Shown here one piece after another: positions 34,539 through 42,075 of a DNA stretch of 64,000 nt. The position numbers were made by a program, and so were the translations under genes. The stretch's first letter is position 1, and each line of letters opens with the position of its first letter. The stretch spans positions 1-64,000 of the forward strand of contig JABURP010000068.1 in assembly GCA_014762645.1 (NCBI GenBank). Direction: 5' to 3'. The stretch is from Crocinitomicaceae bacterium (GTDB lineage: Bacteria > Bacteroidota > Bacteroidia > Flavobacteriales_D > Crocinitomicaceae). Under the pieces are notes generated by a model. That model ran no database searches and was not told the origin of the DNA. It saw only the letters and a program-made list of their open reading frames with translations.

Positions 34539-35851
34539 TGTTTGAAGAATTAATAGATAATTATATACGCTTTTTACAAAGCCTTACGGTGGAACATTTT
34601 ATCCGCCTTTTCTGGTTTTATATCTTCTTTGAATTCTTGCGTTATTTTGTTCTCGAGTTTCTGGTACTCAACTTATGGAAGCTCAGTAAATTTTTCAATC
34701 GAAAAAAATATGCACGGGCAAAAAAGGATTTCATGTTTGAATATCCACTTGTTTCTATAATTATTCCTGGAAAAAATGAAGGAAAACACCTGTATAAACT
34801 CATTACCTCGCTCAATGAACAAACGTATAAGAATACAGAAGTTATTGTGGTGGATGATGGCTCTGATGATGACACTCCTGTTATTGGCCGTGACCTGGAG
34901 AAGGCCGGAATGATCGATAAGTTTATTCGAAATGAAGTAAGGGGAGGGAAGGCTTCCGGGGCAAATACGGCCCTGCGTTTTACAAAGGGAAAATACATAG
35001 TTCACCTGGATGCGGATTGCTCTTATGACCGTGATGCCATTGAAAAGATTATCATCCCATTTTATATGGATAAAGATGTAGCGGGTGTTGGAGGTAACGT
35101 AATGGTTCGAAACTATGACGATTCGCTGGTAACTTCACTGCAAGCTATTGAGTATTACGATACAATAAGTATTGGTAGAGTCGTGACATCTCATTTGGGT
35201 ATTTACAGGATTATTTCCGGTGCTTTTGGTGCCTTTAGAGCAGATGCCCTTGAACAGGTAAAAGGCTGGGATATAGGCCCGGGACTGGATGGTGATATCA
35301 CGGTTAAACTTAGAAAACTGGGGTACAAGATTAAGTTCGAGCAGGAAGCGGTGTGCTTAACTTCGGTTCCAAATACCTTCAAAAAATTAACCCACCAACG
35401 CTTGAGATGGGATAAATCCTTAATCCGTTTCCGGGTAAGAAAACATAAAGATGTACTGGTACCAAATCAGGCGTTTAATTTTCTGAACTTTTTTGCGTTC
35501 ATGGAGAACATTACCTATAATCTGGTGCTGAATTTCAAATGGTACATCTATTTACTGGATATGGTGGCCAACTATCCATCCCAATTAGTCAATATAATTA
35601 TTACCAATATTTTGCTCTACACAGGTACAAACTTCATAAAGTTTGTGATTTACAGTTTATATCGGGCAAGGGCAAATGCATCCTATACCTATTTCCTCAT
35701 TTATATTCCGTGCATGGTGTTCTATTTCGGGTATTATCTTAGGGTAGTACGAACCATTGCGTATTTCCAGGAGTTCTTTTTTAAGCGTTCGTACAAGGAC
35801 CCGTGGAATCCGGAAAAAACATCTGCTCATGCTCAACGCATGAAGTTATAG
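34538..35851 (+). CDS. Processive GT2 polysaccharide synthase
   Basis: A 437-residue membrane glycosyltransferase of the cellulose/PNAG synthase type. An N-terminal hydrophobic segment (about 20-48) leads to the GT2 domain with VVDDGSDDD (105-112), HLDADCS (157-162), the third acidic motif GLDGD (249-253, Leu replacing the usual Glu of TED), and QRLRW (287-291). Three to four further membrane segments follow, with FMENITYNL and YTYFLIYIPCMVFYFGYYL. It should build a polymer and thread it across the inner membrane. Polymer identity is not readable. Last gene of the operon; its end overlaps the convergent kinase by 6 bases. Confidence 0.88.
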   Translation: MFEELIDNYIRFLQSLTVEHFIRLFWFYIFFEFLRYFVLEFLVLNLWKLSKFFNRKKYARAKKDFMFEYPLVSIIIPGKNEGKHLYKLITSLNEQTYKNTEVIVVDDGSDDDTPVIGRDLEKAGMIDKFIRNEVRGGKASGANTALRFTKGKYIVHLDADCSYDRDAIEKIIIPFYMDKDVAGVGGNVMVRNYDDSLVTSLQAIEYYDTISIGRVVTSHLGIYRIISGAFGAFRADALEQVKGWDIGPGLDGDITVKLRKLGYKIKFEQEAVCLTSVPNTFKKLTHQRLRWDKSLIRFRVRKHKDVLVPNQAFNFLNFFAFMENITYNLVLNFKWYIYLLDMVANYPSQLVNIIITNILLYTGTNFIKFVIYSLYRARANASYTYFLIYIPCMVFYFGYYLRVVRTIAYFQEFFFKRSYKDPWNPEKTSAHAQRMKL

Positions 35852-37045
35852 TTGCTTCGGAAATTCAAAATAATAGTGGGTACCGCTTTCCAATACCTCA
35901 CGCTTACAGGTTCCGTCCAGCTGTTCAACAAACGACTCTATTAATTCATTACCAAAACTTGCGTCCTTTTGCGGTTTAACCCAAACGCCATTATCGGAGT
36001 AATGCATGGTTATTGAACGGTCCTCATTGCGTTTAATATCCACATTAATAATCCCTGTTGGGATTTGTTTAAAGGCATGTTCTAGCGAGTTAGAGATCAA
36101 TTCATTAAATATTAATGCCAGGGGAACTATGGATTCCGGTGAAATGTGTTGAACATTAGATGTGATACTGGTTTTGATATCTGTATTTACAGCATAGGAA
36201 GAAATGAGGTCATCAATCAACGTATTGAGGTAGGATTCCAGGTCTATTCTCGACAAGGCCTCCGACTGGTACATTTTTTCATGAATAATAGCCATAGCAG
36301 AAACCCGGTTGATTGAATTATTGAAATGATGACGCGATTCTTCATCTTCAACTTCGTGTAATTGCAATCTAAGAAGGCTTGTGATTACCTGAAGATTATT
36401 TTTTACACGGTGGTGAATTTCTTTCAACATGATCGTTTTTTCGTGGTTTGATCGAACTAATTCCGTGTTGGCTTCTTTGATGGCTTTTTCGGTCTTGCGG
36501 AGTGCGTTCAGAACCTTGATTGTAATGTAAGTAAATACGCTTCCGGATATAATACAATTCAGGATAAAATTAAACTGAGAAAAATTGGTAAAGGGTTTTT
36601 CCACCTGTTCAACAATACCAACCCGCACCAGATAAAGTACAACCATTACAGCTCCGATATTCAAAAAAAGGTTGATTACGCCCCAGGTATTTCCCAATAC
36701 AAAGAAGATATAAATGGCGATTACCATGATCCATAAAAAATCTACAAAATGCCCATAATTGGATGTAATACACATATTGTAGATGGTCAGCCCAAAGGCC
36801 ATAATCATTCCCATGTAGGCCGCCAATTTGTAGTTTCTCCAACGCAATAATATACCCAGGCACATTAAACTGATTCCTGTTCCAAATAAAAGTGGGATGT
36901 AATTGATATCCCTTTGTGCTAAATTCAGGATGCCTACTAAACCAAGTATTACAGCGAGCAGGATAAACAGGTTTCTACTAACATCATACCGTGCTTTGTC
37001 GATATAATCCGGGTTCTCAATATGTTCTCCAATCTTTTGTTTCAA
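35846..37045 (-). CDS. Membrane sensor histidine kinase, HisKA_2 type
   Basis: A 399-residue kinase: six hydrophobic segments (about 25-180), short coiled coil, HisKA_2 with the H-box LKEIHHRVKNNLQVI (H211/H212), and an HATPase with FNELISNSLEHAF (N-box) and SDNGVW (G1). The C-terminal G2 region is short, as usual in this subfamily. Its ATG overlaps the aroA stop (ATGA), so it is probably translated with the aromatic operon, yet it lies tail to tail with the polysaccharide operon. No cognate response regulator is adjacent. Confidence 0.9.
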   Translation of the reverse strand: MKQKIGEHIENPDYIDKARYDVSRNLFILLAVILGLVGILNLAQRDINYIPLLFGTGISLMCLGILLRWRNYKLAAYMGMIMAFGLTIYNMCITSNYGHFVDFLWIMVIAIYIFFVLGNTWGVINLFLNIGAVMVVLYLVRVGIVEQVEKPFTNFSQFNFILNCIISGSVFTYITIKVLNALRKTEKAIKEANTELVRSNHEKTIMLKEIHHRVKNNLQVITSLLRLQLHEVEDEESRHHFNNSINRVSAMAIIHEKMYQSEALSRIDLESYLNTLIDDLISSYAVNTDIKTSITSNVQHISPESIVPLALIFNELISNSLEHAFKQIPTGIINVDIKRNEDRSITMHYSDNGVWVKPQKDASFGNELIESFVEQLDGTCKREVLESGTHYYFEFPKQL

Positions 37046-38286
37046 CTATTCGATCCTTTCAAGGTATCCCAAAATTCTGGATAACTTTTGTTTACAGCTT
37101 CTGCCTGTGCTATTTTATTTATTCCCGGGGTTAAGACAGCCGCTATGGCACCAGCCATTGCAATGCGGTGATCATTATGAGATTCTATTGTACCGGATGA
37201 TAATTCACCAGTAGATTCAATTCTCATTATATCTCCTTCAATTTCAACTGATAAGCCTAATTTATTAAATTCTTTCTTTAGAACAGCAGCGCGGTCACTT
37301 TCTTTGTGTTTTAATCTGGATACTCCCCCTATTAATGATGTTCCATTTGTGGCTGCTGCGAGTACTACGAGCGGTGGGAATAAATCCGGACAATTCGTGG
37401 CATCAAAATTAAAGGATTGAAGAGGTGTTTTGTGAATAATTACCGTTTCATTGATCCATTCAAAAGATCCTCCGGCAGCAACAATTGCTTTTAAAATGGC
37501 AATATCAGCCTGGTTGGATCTCGGATTCAGGCCCTTAAGTTGAAAATTTCCTTTAATTGCGCCATAAACGGCCCAGAATGAAGCCCCGCTCCAGTCTCCC
37601 TCTACACTATAGTCACATGGTTGATAGCTTTGTCGTCCCGGAACCTCAATTTTACTGAGATCGTAGTTGTTTGTCACATCAATTCCAAATAACCTCATTA
37701 TTTCAAGGGTCATTTTTACATAAGGTTTACTTACCAGGTTTTGGATGTGAATAACACTGTCCTTTTCTGCTAGCGGAAGAGCCATCATCAAACCTGAAAG
37801 AAATTGTGAAGACAAACTTCCATCCAGATGAATCTCACCTCCTTGAAGCCGACCGTCAATGGTCAACGGTAACTTGCCATGGATGGTGTGAACTTCAACT
37901 CCCAATTGAGGTAAAAATGTTTCGAATTGCTCCATGGGACGCTTCAACAATGATCCGGTTCCCGAAATTTTGAAATGTTCACCAAATGTGCCGGCAATAG
38001 GCGTTGTCAGTCGCACACCAAGCCCTGATTCCCCGCAATTCAATTCAGTGTTAACAGGATTCATTCGGGCGGCAATTGTTACTCCGTCTGTTGTCTTCTT
38101 AATTTCGGCACCGAGCTGTTTAGCAACATTCAAAATGTTTTGTACATCATCACTGCTGCCAATGTTTCTGATGGTACTGGTTCCGGAACCTAAAGAGGCG
38201 GCCATTATTGCGCGTTGAGCATAACTCTTGGAAGCAGGGGCTGTTACTTCCCTGAGATTAAAGTTATGATCCACTTCTACGTTCAT
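37042..38286 (-). CDS. aroA: 3-phosphoshikimate 1-carboxyvinyltransferase (EPSP synthase)
   Basis: A 414-residue EPSP synthase adding enolpyruvate from PEP to shikimate-3-phosphate. Motifs: SKSYAQRAIMAASLGSG near the N-terminus, LNCGESGLGVRL (PEP loop), ISGTGSLLKRP, LDGSLSSQFLSGLM, RLKHKESDRA and HNDHRIAMAGA. The family's usual Gly-rich first motif has Gly-Glu-Ser-Gly. Third gene of the pheA operon, overlapping the DAHP synthase stop by 4 bases. Confidence 0.96.
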   Translation of the reverse strand: MNVEVDHNFNLREVTAPASKSYAQRAIMAASLGSGTSTIRNIGSSDDVQNILNVAKQLGAEIKKTTDGVTIAARMNPVNTELNCGESGLGVRLTTPIAGTFGEHFKISGTGSLLKRPMEQFETFLPQLGVEVHTIHGKLPLTIDGRLQGGEIHLDGSLSSQFLSGLMMALPLAEKDSVIHIQNLVSKPYVKMTLEIMRLFGIDVTNNYDLSKIEVPGRQSYQPCDYSVEGDWSGASFWAVYGAIKGNFQLKGLNPRSNQADIAILKAIVAAGGSFEWINETVIIHKTPLQSFNFDATNCPDLFPPLVVLAAATNGTSLIGGVSRLKHKESDRAAVLKKEFNKLGLSVEIEGDIMRIESTGELSSGTIESHNDHRIAMAGAIAAVLTPGINKIAQAEAVNKSYPEFWDTLKGSNS

Positions 38287-39350
38287 CCTTTGTTCATTAT
38301 GGCCGTTTGATGTCGAATAGATTCCTGATGAATGGCTTCCAGAAATTTACTTACAAATTTGGAGGACAACCCCTGTCTTTCTGCGTTTTCTAGCTGTAAC
38401 CGTTTGATCTCGGCCCACCTGTTCGGTTGTAATATCGTGATATTGTGTTCTTTTTTATATTGCCCTATTTCCTCTGCAACTACCATTCTCTGGGCGATTA
38501 ATCTAATCAATTCGTAATCAATATCGTTGATTTTCAAACGCAAATCACTTAGGTCTTCTGCAACTTTTACTCCCTCCGGAAACTCTTTCCGTATGATCAA
38601 ACGGTCGAGAATTTCCTTGAGTTTAAGTGGAGTTACTTGTTGTGCTGCATCACTCCAGGCATTGTCAGGATCCGGATGCGATTCGATCATTAATCCATCA
38701 TAAATCAGGTCCATTGCTTTTTGTGATACGTCAAAAATAAGATCTCTCTTTCCTGTAATGTGACTGGGATCGCATATCATTTTAATTTCCGGAAAAGTCC
38801 GTTTAAGTGCTATTGGAATTTCCCACATGGGATCATTTCTGTATTTCCTGCTCATTACGGATGAAAATCCCCTGTGAATAGCGTGCACATCATCTAAACC
38901 AACATTTTGAAAACGCTCAATGGCGCCAATCCACAAGTTGAGATCCGGGTTGATGGGGTTCTTCACAAGCACTTCCACTCTTGTGCCTTTTAGTGCATCA
39001 GCAATTTCCTGAACGGCGAACGGGTTTACCGTGGTTCGCGCTCCTATCCATAATCTGTCAAATCCTTTTTTTAAGCAGCGTTCAACGTGTTTTGTATTGG
39101 CCACTTCCGTAATTACAGGAAGTCCGGTTTCTTCACCTGCAGCTACCAACCAATCAAGGCCTTTTTCACCAATACCTTCAAACGAATTTGGGCGGGTTCT
39201 CGGCTTCCAAATACCGGCCCTCAGCATATCAACTTTTCCGGTTGCATGCAAATCCTTGGCAGTTTGCATTACCTGCTCTTCTGTTTCAGCACTGCACGGA
39301 CCTGATATGATAATTGGCCTTTGCAAATCTTTTATTCCTGTTCGCTTCAT
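38283..39350 (-). CDS. aroF: Bifunctional DAHP synthase / chorismate mutase
   Basis: A 355-residue fusion. The N-terminal domain is a type I-beta DAHP synthase (KDO8P-synthase-like): IISGPCSAETEEQ, MLRAGIWKPRTRPNSFEG, LWIGARTTVNPFAVQEIA, CDPSHITGKRD, ESHPDPDNAWSDA. The C-terminal 90 residues (from DLRLKINDIDYELIRLIAQRM) are an AroQ-type chorismate mutase, a known regulatory arrangement in which chorismate-pathway products control the first enzyme. Start at 39350 leaves 17 bases to pheA; the ATG at 39377 would overlap pheA by 10. The symbol denotes function only. Confidence 0.93.
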   Translation of the reverse strand: MKRTGIKDLQRPIIISGPCSAETEEQVMQTAKDLHATGKVDMLRAGIWKPRTRPNSFEGIGEKGLDWLVAAGEETGLPVITEVANTKHVERCLKKGFDRLWIGARTTVNPFAVQEIADALKGTRVEVLVKNPINPDLNLWIGAIERFQNVGLDDVHAIHRGFSSVMSRKYRNDPMWEIPIALKRTFPEIKMICDPSHITGKRDLIFDVSQKAMDLIYDGLMIESHPDPDNAWSDAAQQVTPLKLKEILDRLIIRKEFPEGVKVAEDLSDLRLKINDIDYELIRLIAQRMVVAEEIGQYKKEHNITILQPNRWAEIKRLQLENAERQGLSSKFVSKFLEAIHQESIRHQTAIMNKG

Positions 39351-39367
39351 CTTATTAGCTGTTGTCG

Positions 39368-40201
39368 TTACTCCCATGGCTCTGCAGATTTTTCATACAC
39401 GCCTAGTAATTTAATCTCGTCCACCAACTGATACAACTCTGGAAGTATCTGCTGGAAATTTTCTCCCATTGGAAGTTCCAGATCAGTAATCATGTCAAAT
39501 TTACCCGGATTATTTAACTTCGGTACGGATTCAATCTTAGTTAAATTTATTCCTTTGTTTTCCAGGTAATTTAACACCAGAGCTAACCTGCCGGGAGCAT
39601 TTTCCACACTGAAAATAATGGTTGCTTTGTCTTCGTGAAGTTTCATACCTGTGGTATTGGTTTTACGGATTACCAAAAATCGCGTGTAATTTTTTGGATT
39701 GTCCTGAACATTTGATGCCAGTACTTCTAATCCGTAATTTTTTGCGGCAAGGGTAGATGCTATAGACGCAACCCCTTTGACCATGTTTTGACCGATATGT
39801 GCAGATGCTGATGCCGTGTCAGAAAAACTCTGACGACTTTTAATTCCAGCCGAATCAAGGAAGTTTTTGCATTGTTTTAACGCCATTTCATGTGAAATCA
39901 CGATCGATATATTTTCCACTTTTTGACCGGGAAGTGCCAATAAATTATGATCAACCTTCAGGTATTTTTCACCAATAATTTCTATGGGCTGGTGACGAAT
40001 CAATGTGTAGTTCTCTAACAAAGTTCCCACCAATGAATTCTCAATGGCCATTACTCCTAACTCCACTTCATTACTCACTAGCTTATCCACCATCTCTGAA
40101 AAATTAGTGCAATAAATGGCCTGGTATTTTTCACCAAAAATACTACGTGCTACCTGATCGTGAAAACTACCTCCAATCCCTTTTATTGCTACTCTTTTCA
40201 T
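39368..40201 (-). CDS. pheA: Prephenate dehydratase
   Basis: A 277-residue enzyme turning prephenate into phenylpyruvate, with a PDT domain (IKGIGGSFHDQVA, GVMAIENSLVGTLLENY, KGVASIASTLAA, NYTRFLVIRK) and a C-terminal ACT domain (IIFSVENAPGRLALVLNYLENKGINLTKIESVP) for Phe feedback. I reject the longer frame starting at 40327, because its first 42 codons span the leader terminator. No chorismate mutase domain is attached; that activity is in the next gene. Controlled by the leader at 40308-40370. Confidence 0.94.
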   Translation of the reverse strand: MKRVAIKGIGGSFHDQVARSIFGEKYQAIYCTNFSEMVDKLVSNEVELGVMAIENSLVGTLLENYTLIRHQPIEIIGEKYLKVDHNLLALPGQKVENISIVISHEMALKQCKNFLDSAGIKSRQSFSDTASASAHIGQNMVKGVASIASTLAAKNYGLEVLASNVQDNPKNYTRFLVIRKTNTTGMKLHEDKATIIFSVENAPGRLALVLNYLENKGINLTKIESVPKLNNPGKFDMITDLELPMGENFQQILPELYQLVDEIKLLGVYEKSAEPWE

Positions 40202-40248
40202 TGTTTTATTATTTCGTTTATCTCCACTTGTTTTATGGTTTTTAACCC

Positions 40249-40277
40249 AAAAAAAAAGCCTCCCTACAGGAGACTTT
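40249..40277 (-). terminator. Attenuator terminator of the pheA operon
   Basis: On the minus strand AAAGTCTCC (40277-40269) pairs with GGGAGGCTTT (about 40264-40255), followed by nine T (40257-40249). It lies between the leader peptide and pheA. TCTCC (40273-40269) can alternatively pair with GGAGA (40306-40302) right after the leader stop, extended by TTGTAT/ATACAA (40297-40292 / 40289-40284), which would remove the terminator's 5' arm. Confidence 0.85.
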
Positions 40278-40307
40278 TCAAAGTTGTATGTATACAATAA
40301 CTCTCCC

Positions 40308-40370
40308 TCATCTGGTAATAGGAACATACCAAAAGAAGTAAAAGTTGTTATTTAAAGTTGTCATCTTCAT
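40308..40370 (-). CDS. pheL: Leader peptide of the pheA-aroF-aroA operon
   Basis: A 20-codon ORF starting at ATG 40370 and ending in TGA at 40308. It contains the uninterrupted run Phe-Tyr-Phe-Phe-Trp-Tyr (residues 10-15). Six consecutive aromatic codons directly before a terminator of an aromatic biosynthesis operon are the signature of ribosome-mediated attenuation. A stalled ribosome on this run should favour the antiterminator. The peptide has no homology-based support; the assignment is from composition and position. A TAGATTTG (40386-40379) resembling a -7 box sits just upstream. Confidence 0.85.
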   Translation of the reverse strand: MKMTTLNNNFYFFWYVPITR

Positions 40371-40454
40371 TACTTGGGCAAATCTAAAAACAAAATAATT
40401 TATTCTCTTACTTTTCTAAGTAAAAAAATGGTCCAACTTCTGAAACACAAAACC

Positions 40455-40543: not shown

Positions 40544-40597
40544 ATGAATTTTAAATGTACAAATACAAATTGGTGGTGGTCTACTCAACGAATGTGA
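40544..40597 (+). CDS. trpL: trp operon leader peptide
   Basis: A 17-codon ORF from ATG 40544 to TGA 40595-40597, with three consecutive Trp codons (40571-40579) as residues 10-12. Its end overlaps the first of a set of mutually exclusive hairpins: segment 1 CTACTCA (40581-40587) with segment 2 TGAGTGG, segment 2 (40594-40605) with segment 3 (40635-40647), and segment 3 with segment 4 (the terminator). This is the textbook trp attenuator layout. Confidence 0.9.
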   Translation: MNFKCTNTNWWWSTQRM

Positions 40598-40628: not shown

Positions 40629-40665
40629 AACGGCCTATCGTACTCACGGTAGGCCGTTTTCTTTT
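40629..40665 (+). terminator. trp attenuator terminator
   Basis: A 12-bp stem: AACGGCCTATCG (40629-40640) with CGGTAGGCCGTT (40647-40658, one T-G pair), loop TACTCA, then TTTTCTTTT to 40665. The competing antiterminator pairs GTGAGT (40594-40599) with ACTCAC (40642-40647) and GATAG (40601-40605) with CTATC (40635-40639). Confidence 0.9.
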
Positions 40666-40704: not shown

Positions 40705-42075
40705 ATGAAGATTTATACCAAGACACAGGAAATTTTAAGTGATACCTTAACACCCATTTCCGCTTTTTTGAGTTTGAGAGATGTCTTTGCCAATGTCTCT
40801 CTCTTTGAAAGCTCAGATTATAACTCCAGAGAAAATTCCAGGTCCTATATCTGTGTAAAACCGATCGTTACGGTACAGGTACAAAACAAAATCCTTGATG
40901 TTAAGATCAATGGACATTCAACCCTGGAGAAATTTGATGTTGTGGCTGAAGATGTTGAACATTCATTGGGTCAGTTTCATTTTGTTAATCTTGAACAGGC
41001 CCCATGCAATTGTTTTTTTGGTGTAATCGGTTATGATGCCGTGCCCTTGTTTGAAGATATCGAATTCAAAAGACAAAAAGATGACTTACCGGAAGTGTTT
41101 CTGGCAGCCTACCAATTTGTTTTGGAGTTTGATCATTTTCACAATCGGTTGAAGATGAGGTTCAATTCATTCAGTGAAGAGGAAAACGAACTTTTTGTAA
41201 TCATGAATGCTCTGAACCAAACCATTAAACCCACCGGTTTTTTCGAAAATGTAGGGTGCTTCCAATCGTCTGAAACAGATGAATCTTTTAAAGAGAAAGT
41301 TACGCTGGCAAAGGAACATGTGGCAAGGGGAGATGTTTTTCAGTTGGTATTATCCAGACAGTTTAAACAAAAGTTCAAAGGAGATGATTTTGAGGTTTAT
41401 CGGCAGCTGAGAACTGTGAATCCATCACCTTATATGTTCTATTTTGACATGAATAGGGCACGACTTATTGGGGCATCTCCTGAGGCACAACTAAGAGTAT
41501 CGGGAAATCGGGCCGAGATTCATCCGATAGCCGGAACTGTGAAGCGAACCGCAGATGAGCAGTTTAATCTTCAAAAAATAGAGCAACTCCGAACAGACGA
41601 AAAAGAAAATGCAGAACACATGATGCTGGTGGATCTGGCCAGAAATGATCTGAACAGAAGTTGTTCCCATGTTCAGGTTGAACGGCTTAAAGAGGTTCAG
41701 ACTTTTTCGCATGTCATTCACCTGGTATCCAAAGTCACCGGCAAAGTCACTTCGGACAGTACATTGCAAACATTCGGAACGAGTTTTCCTGCCGGAACCT
41801 TATCGGGAGCGCCGAAGTACCGGGCTATGGAATTGATCGATAAATATGAAGCGACAAACCGGAGGTATTATGGTGGAGCTATCGGGATGATCTCAACAAA
41901 TGGTGACATCAATATGGCCATTGTCATCCGTTCTGCATTGAGTTATAAAAATGAACTTATTTACCAGGCTGGAGCAGGAATAGTTCTGGATTCAACTGAA
42001 GAAGGGGAGTGTCAGGAAGTGTATAACAAAGTGGGTTCTGTTCAACAGGCCATTCAAAATGCCAATCAACAATGA
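40705..42075 (+). CDS. trpE: Anthranilate synthase component I
   Basis: A 456-residue chorismate-utilising enzyme making anthranilate with glutamine-derived ammonia from TrpG. N-terminal LFESSD corresponds to the Trp feedback-binding LLES motif. The catalytic domain has DVFQLVLSRQF, NPSPYMFYFD, IGASPEA, IAGTVKRTADE, MLVDLARNDLNR, TFPAGTLSGAPK-like and AIGMISTNGDINMAI. Length is slightly short but complete. First gene after the attenuator; overlaps trpG by 4 bases. Confidence 0.97.
   Translation: MKIYTKTQEILSDTLTPISAFLSLRDVFANVSLFESSDYNSRENSRSYICVKPIVTVQVQNKILDVKINGHSTLEKFDVVAEDVEHSLGQFHFVNLEQAPCNCFFGVIGYDAVPLFEDIEFKRQKDDLPEVFLAAYQFVLEFDHFHNRLKMRFNSFSEEENELFVIMNALNQTIKPTGFFENVGCFQSSETDESFKEKVTLAKEHVARGDVFQLVLSRQFKQKFKGDDFEVYRQLRTVNPSPYMFYFDMNRARLIGASPEAQLRVSGNRAEIHPIAGTVKRTADEQFNLQKIEQLRTDEKENAEHMMLVDLARNDLNRSCSHVQVERLKEVQTFSHVIHLVSKVTGKVTSDSTLQTFGTSFPAGTLSGAPKYRAMELIDKYEATNRRYYGGAIGMISTNGDINMAIVIRSALSYKNELIYQAGAGIVLDSTEEGECQEVYNKVGSVQQAIQNANQQ

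Follow-up and report, generated by a model that had tools for sequence, protein, structure and literature searches.

The pheA-DAHP synthase/chorismate mutase-aroA operon on the minus strand of the window (the whole 64,000-nt stretch of Crocinitomicaceae DNA analysed here) is very probably headed by a ribosome-mediated transcription attenuator that would sense phenylalanine, tyrosine and tryptophan through one leader peptide. The sequence analysis covers the leader ORF, the helices, the terminator, recurrence, covariation and codon bias; from these we infer the transcription start, ribosome stalling, the response to each amino acid and the route to tyrosine. Coordinates are collected in Table 1; genomes, loci and families carry our own labels (G, L and f numbers).

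Table 1. Features of the attenuated operon and of the divergent trp leader, in positions of the window.
Feature	Position	Strand	Basis or remark
aroA, EPSP synthase	37042..38286	minus	TIGR01356, 346.7 bits, above the 287.25 cut-off
DAHP synthase with C-terminal chorismate mutase domain (aroF in the initial annotation)	38283..39377	minus	NCBIfam DAHPS and chorismate mutase models, all under curated cut-offs
pheA, prephenate dehydratase	39368..40201	minus	PF00800, 173.9 bits, above cut-off
Region 4 and nine-T tail: GGGAGGC then TTTTTTTTT; 3' half of the predicted intrinsic terminator	40249..40264	minus	Sequence
Region 3: AAAGTCTCCT; antiterminator 3' arm and terminator 5' arm	40268..40277	minus	Sequence, RNAfold, shuffles
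TTGTATACATACAA, small hairpin within the antiterminator	40284..40297	minus	RNAfold
Region 2: contains the stop codon; core AGGGAGAGTTA (40308-40298) pairs with region 1 or region 3	40298..40317	minus	RNAfold, shuffles, simulation
Control codons TTT TAC TTC TTT TGG TAT (F Y F F W Y), codons 10-15	40326..40343	minus	Sequence and stall simulation
Region 1: aromatic codons as 5' arm of protector helix 1:2	40327..40345	minus	RNAfold
Leader ORF MKMTTLNNNFYFFWYVPITR + TGA; 20 codons, ATG to TGA	40370-40308	minus	Read from sequence
TAGATTTG, candidate Bacteroidetes-type -7 promoter box (TANNTTTG)	40379..40386	minus	Pattern match
Trp leader MNFKCTNTNWWWSTQRM of the divergent trp operon	40544-40597	plus	Absent from the initial annotation
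Terminator of the trp leader	40629-40658	plus	Before trpE at 40705

The initial annotation, made from the sequence alone, had proposed a 20-codon aromatic leader ORF, an antiterminator pairing GGAGA with TCTCC around an inner hairpin, and a terminator with nine T before pheA, and each of these elements was found in the sequence. The predicted ORF carries FYFFWY at codons 10-15 and its stop lies 106 nt from the pheA ATG (40201, the start chosen by us, the reading frame staying open further upstream). Downstream of the stop follow, in order, GGGAGAG, the TTGTA/TACAA hairpin, the terminator AAAGTCTCC-TGTA-GGGAGGCTTT and the run of nine T (40257-40249). By itself the aromatic run is inconclusive, because it is a roughly 0.3-1.3% event in this AT-rich DNA: when the 330 nt before pheA were shuffled 3000 times with dinucleotides preserved, an ORF with at least six aromatic codons in eight arose in 38 cases and an unbroken run of at least six in 10. 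The run gains weight from the accompanying predicted terminator, the mutually exclusive helices and their conservation. Three Asn codons (NNN) stand directly 5' of the run, in a genome that gave no match to asnA (PF03590), and may be a relic or a spacer.

Folding with RNAfold added a helix that was absent from the initial annotation, in which the aromatic codons (ACTTTTACTTCTTTTGGTA) pair with TACCAGATGAGGGAGAGT, a segment spanning the stop codon and the larger part of what later becomes the antiterminator arm. The leader therefore has the full set of 1:2 protector, 2:3 antiterminator and 3:4 terminator, with the 1:2 and 2:3 helices mutually exclusive. The 1:2 duplex of the window (-17.7) was equalled by none of 60 shuffles, and its 2:3 duplex ranks only 5 of 60 at this single locus. 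The terminator stem (dG -11.7) begins 30 nt past the leader stop and ends 53 nt before the pheA ATG.

Ribosome stalling was simulated by masking everything from the 5' end of the RNA to the far edge of a 12-nt footprint that began with the first base of the codon of interest; this one footprint was used throughout, and the remaining RNA was folded to the end of region 3. With the simulated ribosome at codons 10-15 the probability of 2:3 pairing was 0.92-0.99, compared with 0.00 when it stood at the stop codon and 0.01 when there was no ribosome. Simulated stalls at Leu6, Asn7-9 and Val16-Ile18 antiterminated equally to those at the aromatic codons; the fold therefore allows a stall anywhere there, and codon content would set what is sensed. 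With region 4 in the folded RNA, the terminator was the favoured equilibrium structure for all simulated placements of the ribosome (P(3:4) 0.80, P(2:3) 0.00), so the switch would have to be kinetic, with 2:3 forming first.

The mechanism that we propose is as follows. With ample charged tRNA for Phe, Tyr and Trp, the ribosome would pass the six aromatic codons, reach the stop and cover region 2; region 3 would then pair with region 4 and transcription would stop at the U run. If any one of the three charged tRNAs ran short, the ribosome would stall in the run and mask region 1, leaving region 2 free for region 3, so that the terminator would form too late and the operon would be transcribed. 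The leader would thus serve as an OR gate for those aromatic amino acids whose supply relies on the operon, in which DAHP synthase and EPSP synthase feed all three aromatics and PheA feeds Phe.

Recurrence was examined with the Pfam profile for PheA (PF00800), used instead of a single-protein search that had found PheA in 10 of 59 relatives. The profile matched 337 of 392 genomes of the phylum sample. In the family and the order pheA is patchy (22 of 150 and 32 of 299 genomes, respectively) and is absent from G001 and G003, two genomes of the window's genus that are close to complete, which points to patchy aromatic amino acid synthesis in these groups. A contig search for related loci gave one near relative (L002) and 17 distant loci, the latter outside the analysis. 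The set compared comprises 126 loci, namely the window and 125 others: all 45 further pheA genes of the family and order, and 80 class genomes from other families, chosen from 97 with a match (17 were dropped, 14 of them from one genus).

At 88 of the 126 loci, in 14 families, pheA is preceded by a leader in which five or more codons out of eight are aromatic; shuffled sequences gave such a leader 442 times in 5040, and the reverse strands 7 times in 126. For seven or more out of eight the counts are 57/126, 5/5040 and 0/126, respectively. Examples of the predicted peptides in relatives are MSKTYFWNGFYFYFFFKRDTGLC, MTMKYAYWFFNYFYFSNKSRV, MKRFNAYFWFYYYYFKALPG... The initial annotation would have been abandoned had the aromatic run lacked conservation in relatives; a predicted short ORF of the same kind, with its run of control codons, stands before the operon at 87 of the 125 other loci. 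Moreover, an intrinsic terminator follows the leader stop in 88 of 88 cases (24 of 440 shuffles), 20-40 nt past the stop in 81 of them, and in all of these, as in the window, it lies between the leader and the first gene. Outside the class, the 30 pheA genes that scored highest against the profile in the phylum sample yielded no aromatic leader.

The presence of the predicted leader tracks operon position: it stands at the operon head and not before an internal pheA, defined as one with a same-strand ORF of at least 90 aa within 100 nt upstream. Gene names were assigned by similarity to a few reference proteins; the usual order is pheA-aminotransferase-tyrA-DAHPS/CM, and f14 has pheA-DAHPS-aroA like the window. 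Of 82 operons that begin with pheA and include DAHPS, 73 have a leader, as do 6 of the 8 in which a leading pheA is joined by an aminotransferase or tyrA only, 4 of 11 loci with pheA alone and 5 of the 9 loci without an operon call; directly before an internal pheA there is a leader in 0 of 16 cases (6 of f1, 5 of f16, 5 of f19). Seven of the nine pheA-headed DAHPS operons without a called leader belong to f3, and three of these seven have runs just below the threshold. Operon heads were inspected for all f1 and f19 internal cases and for one f16 case. In four of the five f19 cases an aromatic leader (YFTFFYFYF or similar) lies 56-73 nt before the head gene of the operon, which looks like DAHP synthase in G550, where the sequence was read, and is of similar size and place in the other three; no leader was found at the operon head in the fifth (G673) or in the f16 case inspected (G370).

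The alternative pairings recur along with the peptide. Complementarity was examined in 87 of the 88 leaders, that of G428 being left out as its terminator is too distant. The complementarity of region 2 to region 3, the 5' arm of the terminator, ranks within the best 5% of shuffles at 68 of 87 loci; for regions 1 and 2 the corresponding figure is 51 of 87. Region 2 begins 5-13 nt past the last aromatic codon at 73 of 87 loci, and 17 nt past it in the window, a spacing that would suit a ribosome footprint. Furthermore, the helix arms vary together between loci (GGGAC/GTCCC, GAGAC/GTCTC, GAGGC/GCCTC, AGGGTT/AACCC, GGGGCC/GGCCCC).

Covariation of both hairpins, which had been suggested as a check on the initial annotation, was evident for 3:4 and 2:3 alike. 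In a MAFFT alignment of 79 sequences the 3:4 helix has 90.8% of cells paired and 72 both-side changes (shuffle mean 24.2, 0/500), and the 2:3 helix 75.3% paired and 53 both-side changes (shuffle mean 14.7, 0/500), in shuffles that leave the relatedness of the sequences in place. The 78 sequences besides the window exclude the leaders of f4, f7, f8 and f9 and any stretch longer than 135 nt. When slid by one column the 2:3 pairing still scores (65.3% paired, 36 both-side changes), since some rows have region 2 out of register by a single base. An initial count of 61 sequences (the window plus 60 others, 18 of the 78 being left out) gave a similar picture, with a weaker 2:3 (28 both-side cells vs 12.4) and 94.3% of 3:4 paired; it was repeated with all 79 because some of the 18 omitted sequences are divergent.

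By their control codons the 88 leaders divide into 44 with Phe and Tyr, 42 with Phe, Tyr and Trp, and 2 with Phe only; 46 of the 88 are without Trp. Duplicates removed, 80 distinct spans, bounded by aromatic residues with Trp included, hold 641 aromatic codons (361 Phe, 242 Tyr and 38 Trp). The enterobacterial pheA leader senses Phe only, and the attenuator here could do likewise, its Tyr and Trp codons being fillers from AT-rich, U-rich sequence, as the two Phe-only leaders and the prevalence of Phe would allow. We regard this as unlikely, given that 86 of the 88 leaders mix aromatic codons and that Tyr makes up so large a part of the total. In addition, the 80 spans contain 38 TGG codons compared with no Leu TTA/TTG and 4 Cys TGT/TGC, though these are one step from Phe or Tyr codons. 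Trp codons are also concentrated inside the run: when spans were bounded by Phe and Tyr alone (79 distinct), 24 of 41 Trp codons lay inside, against 5.3 expected (0/5000 permutations). That one leader senses several aromatic amino acids, as first suggested in the initial annotation, is the best reading of the recurrence, the helix covariation and the position of the Trp codons, with Trp sensing, for which 42 of the 88 leaders carry the codon, as its least sure part. In the window the control codons match the products of the operon, the three Asn codons being unmatched. The idea that Tyr codons simply track tyrA in the operon was dropped, since f14 has many Tyr codons and no tyrA there.

A metabolite-binding riboswitch or a T-box, with the small ORF incidental, would also display a terminator and an alternative pairing, and the pheA 5' element of a flavobacterium has been classed as structured cis-regulatory RNA to which nothing in Rfam corresponds (PMC9723704). 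Such an element is nonetheless highly improbable here: in the window the Rfam gathering score was exceeded by a tRNA only, no T-box or riboswitch family of Rfam rose above its gathering cut-off at the leader in the window and 17 relatives, and the pheA leaders of those relatives had no Rfam match at all, two Flavo-1 matches in L120 lying elsewhere. What is conserved is the meaning of the codons and the co-varying helices, with no fixed core seen beyond them. Least probable of all is a function of the peptide as such, either as an arrest peptide or by acting in trans (a trans-acting leader peptide being known, PMC7298713), with codons selected for the peptide, given that by eye the order and number of F, Y and W differ between genera, and that the tails alike within families coincide with RNA region 2.

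The genes of the operon accord with three-aromatic sensing by the attenuator. The best NCBIfam match of pheA is PRK11898, with 184.5 bits, under its cut-off of 219. No TyrA (prephenate dehydrogenase) above the Pfam cut-off was found in the window's own genome; a weak PF02153 match was rejected, its ORF resembling a pyrroline-5-carboxylate reductase by eye. The genome does contain an aromatic amino acid hydroxylase (PF00351, 140 bits). As the search for a prephenate dehydrogenase gave none, this hydroxylase probably makes Tyr from Phe, so that Tyr would depend on pheA as well; the Tyr codons of the leader would thereby be accounted for. Among 80 genomes checked, TyrA was above the cut-off in 49 (in six by less than 6 bits) and the hydroxylase was present in 43. 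A sensor histidine-kinase-like ORF, identified from its sequence (35846-37045, minus strand), overlaps the end of aroA by 4 bases and is possibly the last gene of the attenuated operon.

Asparagine codons provide a further instance of codons that follow the genes downstream. asnA lies directly 5' of pheA in seven f1 genomes (six of the internal cases and G140), and in all seven an ORF rich in Asn and Phe codons precedes asnA, for example MIINNNFFFFFNHFKF and MKTMNNNFFNFNNHTK. Within the family sample, 16 of 150 genomes contain asnA and ten of these have an Asn+Phe leader with a terminator (loci L248-L258 hold the f1 asnA); among the ten, the contig ends within asnA in G094 and G133, and G080 has a second leader before pheA. 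In G109 (L251), where asnA is on another contig than pheA, asnA is preceded by an Asn-only leader, MQKLNRNNNNNNSPP..., with six Asn in a row, and the pheA leader has NNFFFYYSFF. No convincing asnA leader was seen in G118, G157, G006, G097 and G002 (5 of the 16), and none was found for the three lone asnA genes other than that of G109.

The share of Asn is 0.33 in nine asnA leaders vs 0.12 in 13 pheA leaders of the family (0/20000 permutations), the genomes being related, Asn being counted in the search score for the asnA group only and some peptides being trimmed to an inner ATG. The asnA group omits G094, identical to G083; the pheA group omits G006, nearly identical to G027, and includes G092, whose run is below the threshold. 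Asn is also common as a spacer in other leaders. As predicted from these sequences, Asn codons are added to the leader of an operon that has asnA, the gene for Asn synthesis, at its head. More broadly, we think it reasonably likely that codon-programmed multi-input attenuators run pheA-type operons across the class, the codon set of the leader approaching the union of the amino acids made by the operon and codon gain following gene gain. The series that this reading implies is held with the same fair confidence: Phe+Tyr(+Trp) for pheA-(AT-tyrA)-DAHPS, Asn+Phe with asnA at the head, Asn alone before the lone asnA of G109, and Trp alone for the trp operon.

Leader-peptide attenuation is a textbook mechanism, and ilv leaders carry codons for several amino acids. 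With the enterobacterial trp, his, pheA and ilvGMEDA attenuators the element described here has in common a short control-codon ORF, mutually exclusive helices, an intrinsic terminator and a biosynthetic operon. It differs in its interleaved Phe, Tyr and Trp codons, in an operon that joins the common pathway to the Phe branch, and in belonging to another phylum, sequence kinship being no part of the likeness. pheA and ilvGMEDA are listed among ribosome-mediated attenuators (PMC1183508), and as of 2010 the authors of one study were unaware of any leader-peptide system beyond Proteobacteria and Actinobacteria (PMC2965389). In the transcriptome of Flavobacterium psychrophilum, pheA is preceded by a structured 5' element that other Flavobacteriaceae genera share and that has no Rfam match; the same study gives strong indications that leader-peptide attenuators stand before operons for amino acids (PMC9723704). 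That element is probably the same as the one described here; its peptide, mixed codons and class-wide distribution do not appear in the main-text passages of that paper. Likewise, a map of B. thetaiotaomicron includes small ORFs reminiscent of leader peptides (PMC7366714).

Among named motifs, uORFC-13-1 of Acholeplasma aroF (DAHP synthase) is likewise a predicted uORF attenuator with a terminator; it has at least one Phe codon, belongs to another phylum, and is described in the relevant part of its report without a mixed aromatic run (PMC8632094). The Leu/phe leader of Lactococcus (RF01743, PMC2864571) has two amino acids in its name, and concerns other amino acids and another phylum. The best Rfam match on the leader strand, over the whole model, is Phe_leader (RF01859), whose gathering score of 55 bits the window leader, at 25.6, does not reach. 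In the open-access literature, where most subscription papers are missing, we found no account of leaders of the three-aromatic or Asn+aromatic type. Older attenuator papers (Lopatovskaya 2010, cited in PMC4833913; Vitreschak 2004) may already list Bacteroidetes pheA leaders. Within the open-access literature, three-aromatic and Asn+aromatic sensing looks like an undescribed variant of ribosome-mediated attenuation and is therefore counted here as a new form of this known mechanism. If true, one leader would sense three end products of a branched pathway and would recur through a bacterial class, and the natural series of Phe-only, Phe+Tyr, Phe+Tyr+Trp, Asn+Phe and Asn-only leaders would offer material for how multi-input attenuators evolve. 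It would also suggest a rule for annotation, by which leader codons hint at the products of an operon and mark its head.

A candidate promoter box precedes the leader ORF, matching TANNTTTG, which we take to be the consensus of the Bacteroidetes -7 box, lying at a distance from the start site that we likewise assume. Such boxes occur before the leader ATG at a density of 0.51 per 80-nt window (88 leaders) vs 22 in 528 background windows (0.04), and lie within 60 nt of the ATG in 44 of the 88 leaders. No convincing -33 box was seen by eye near the box in the window. Transcription from this box would leave a 5' leader of a few bases before the leader ATG. In several f15 loci (e.g. L116, L119, L140, L155) TANNTTTG boxes lie 12-21 nt 5' of the leader ATG, and the short spacing there and in the window suggests nearly leaderless leader mRNAs.

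The divergent trp operon on the opposite strand has a predicted leader of its own. The Bacteroid-trp leader (RF01692) is a leader RNA of Bacteroidetes with a Trp peptide (PMC2864571, PMC6414381); it concerns the trp operon, and the local example, which matches it weakly (40.1 bits, cut-off 49), has Trp codons and no Phe/Tyr run. TrpE was seen to adjoin pheA in none of the other loci compared, most of which reach only 1.2-1.5 kb upstream. In the window two predicted attenuators thus stand back to back, a Trp-only one for the trp operon and a three-aromatic one for the pheA operon.
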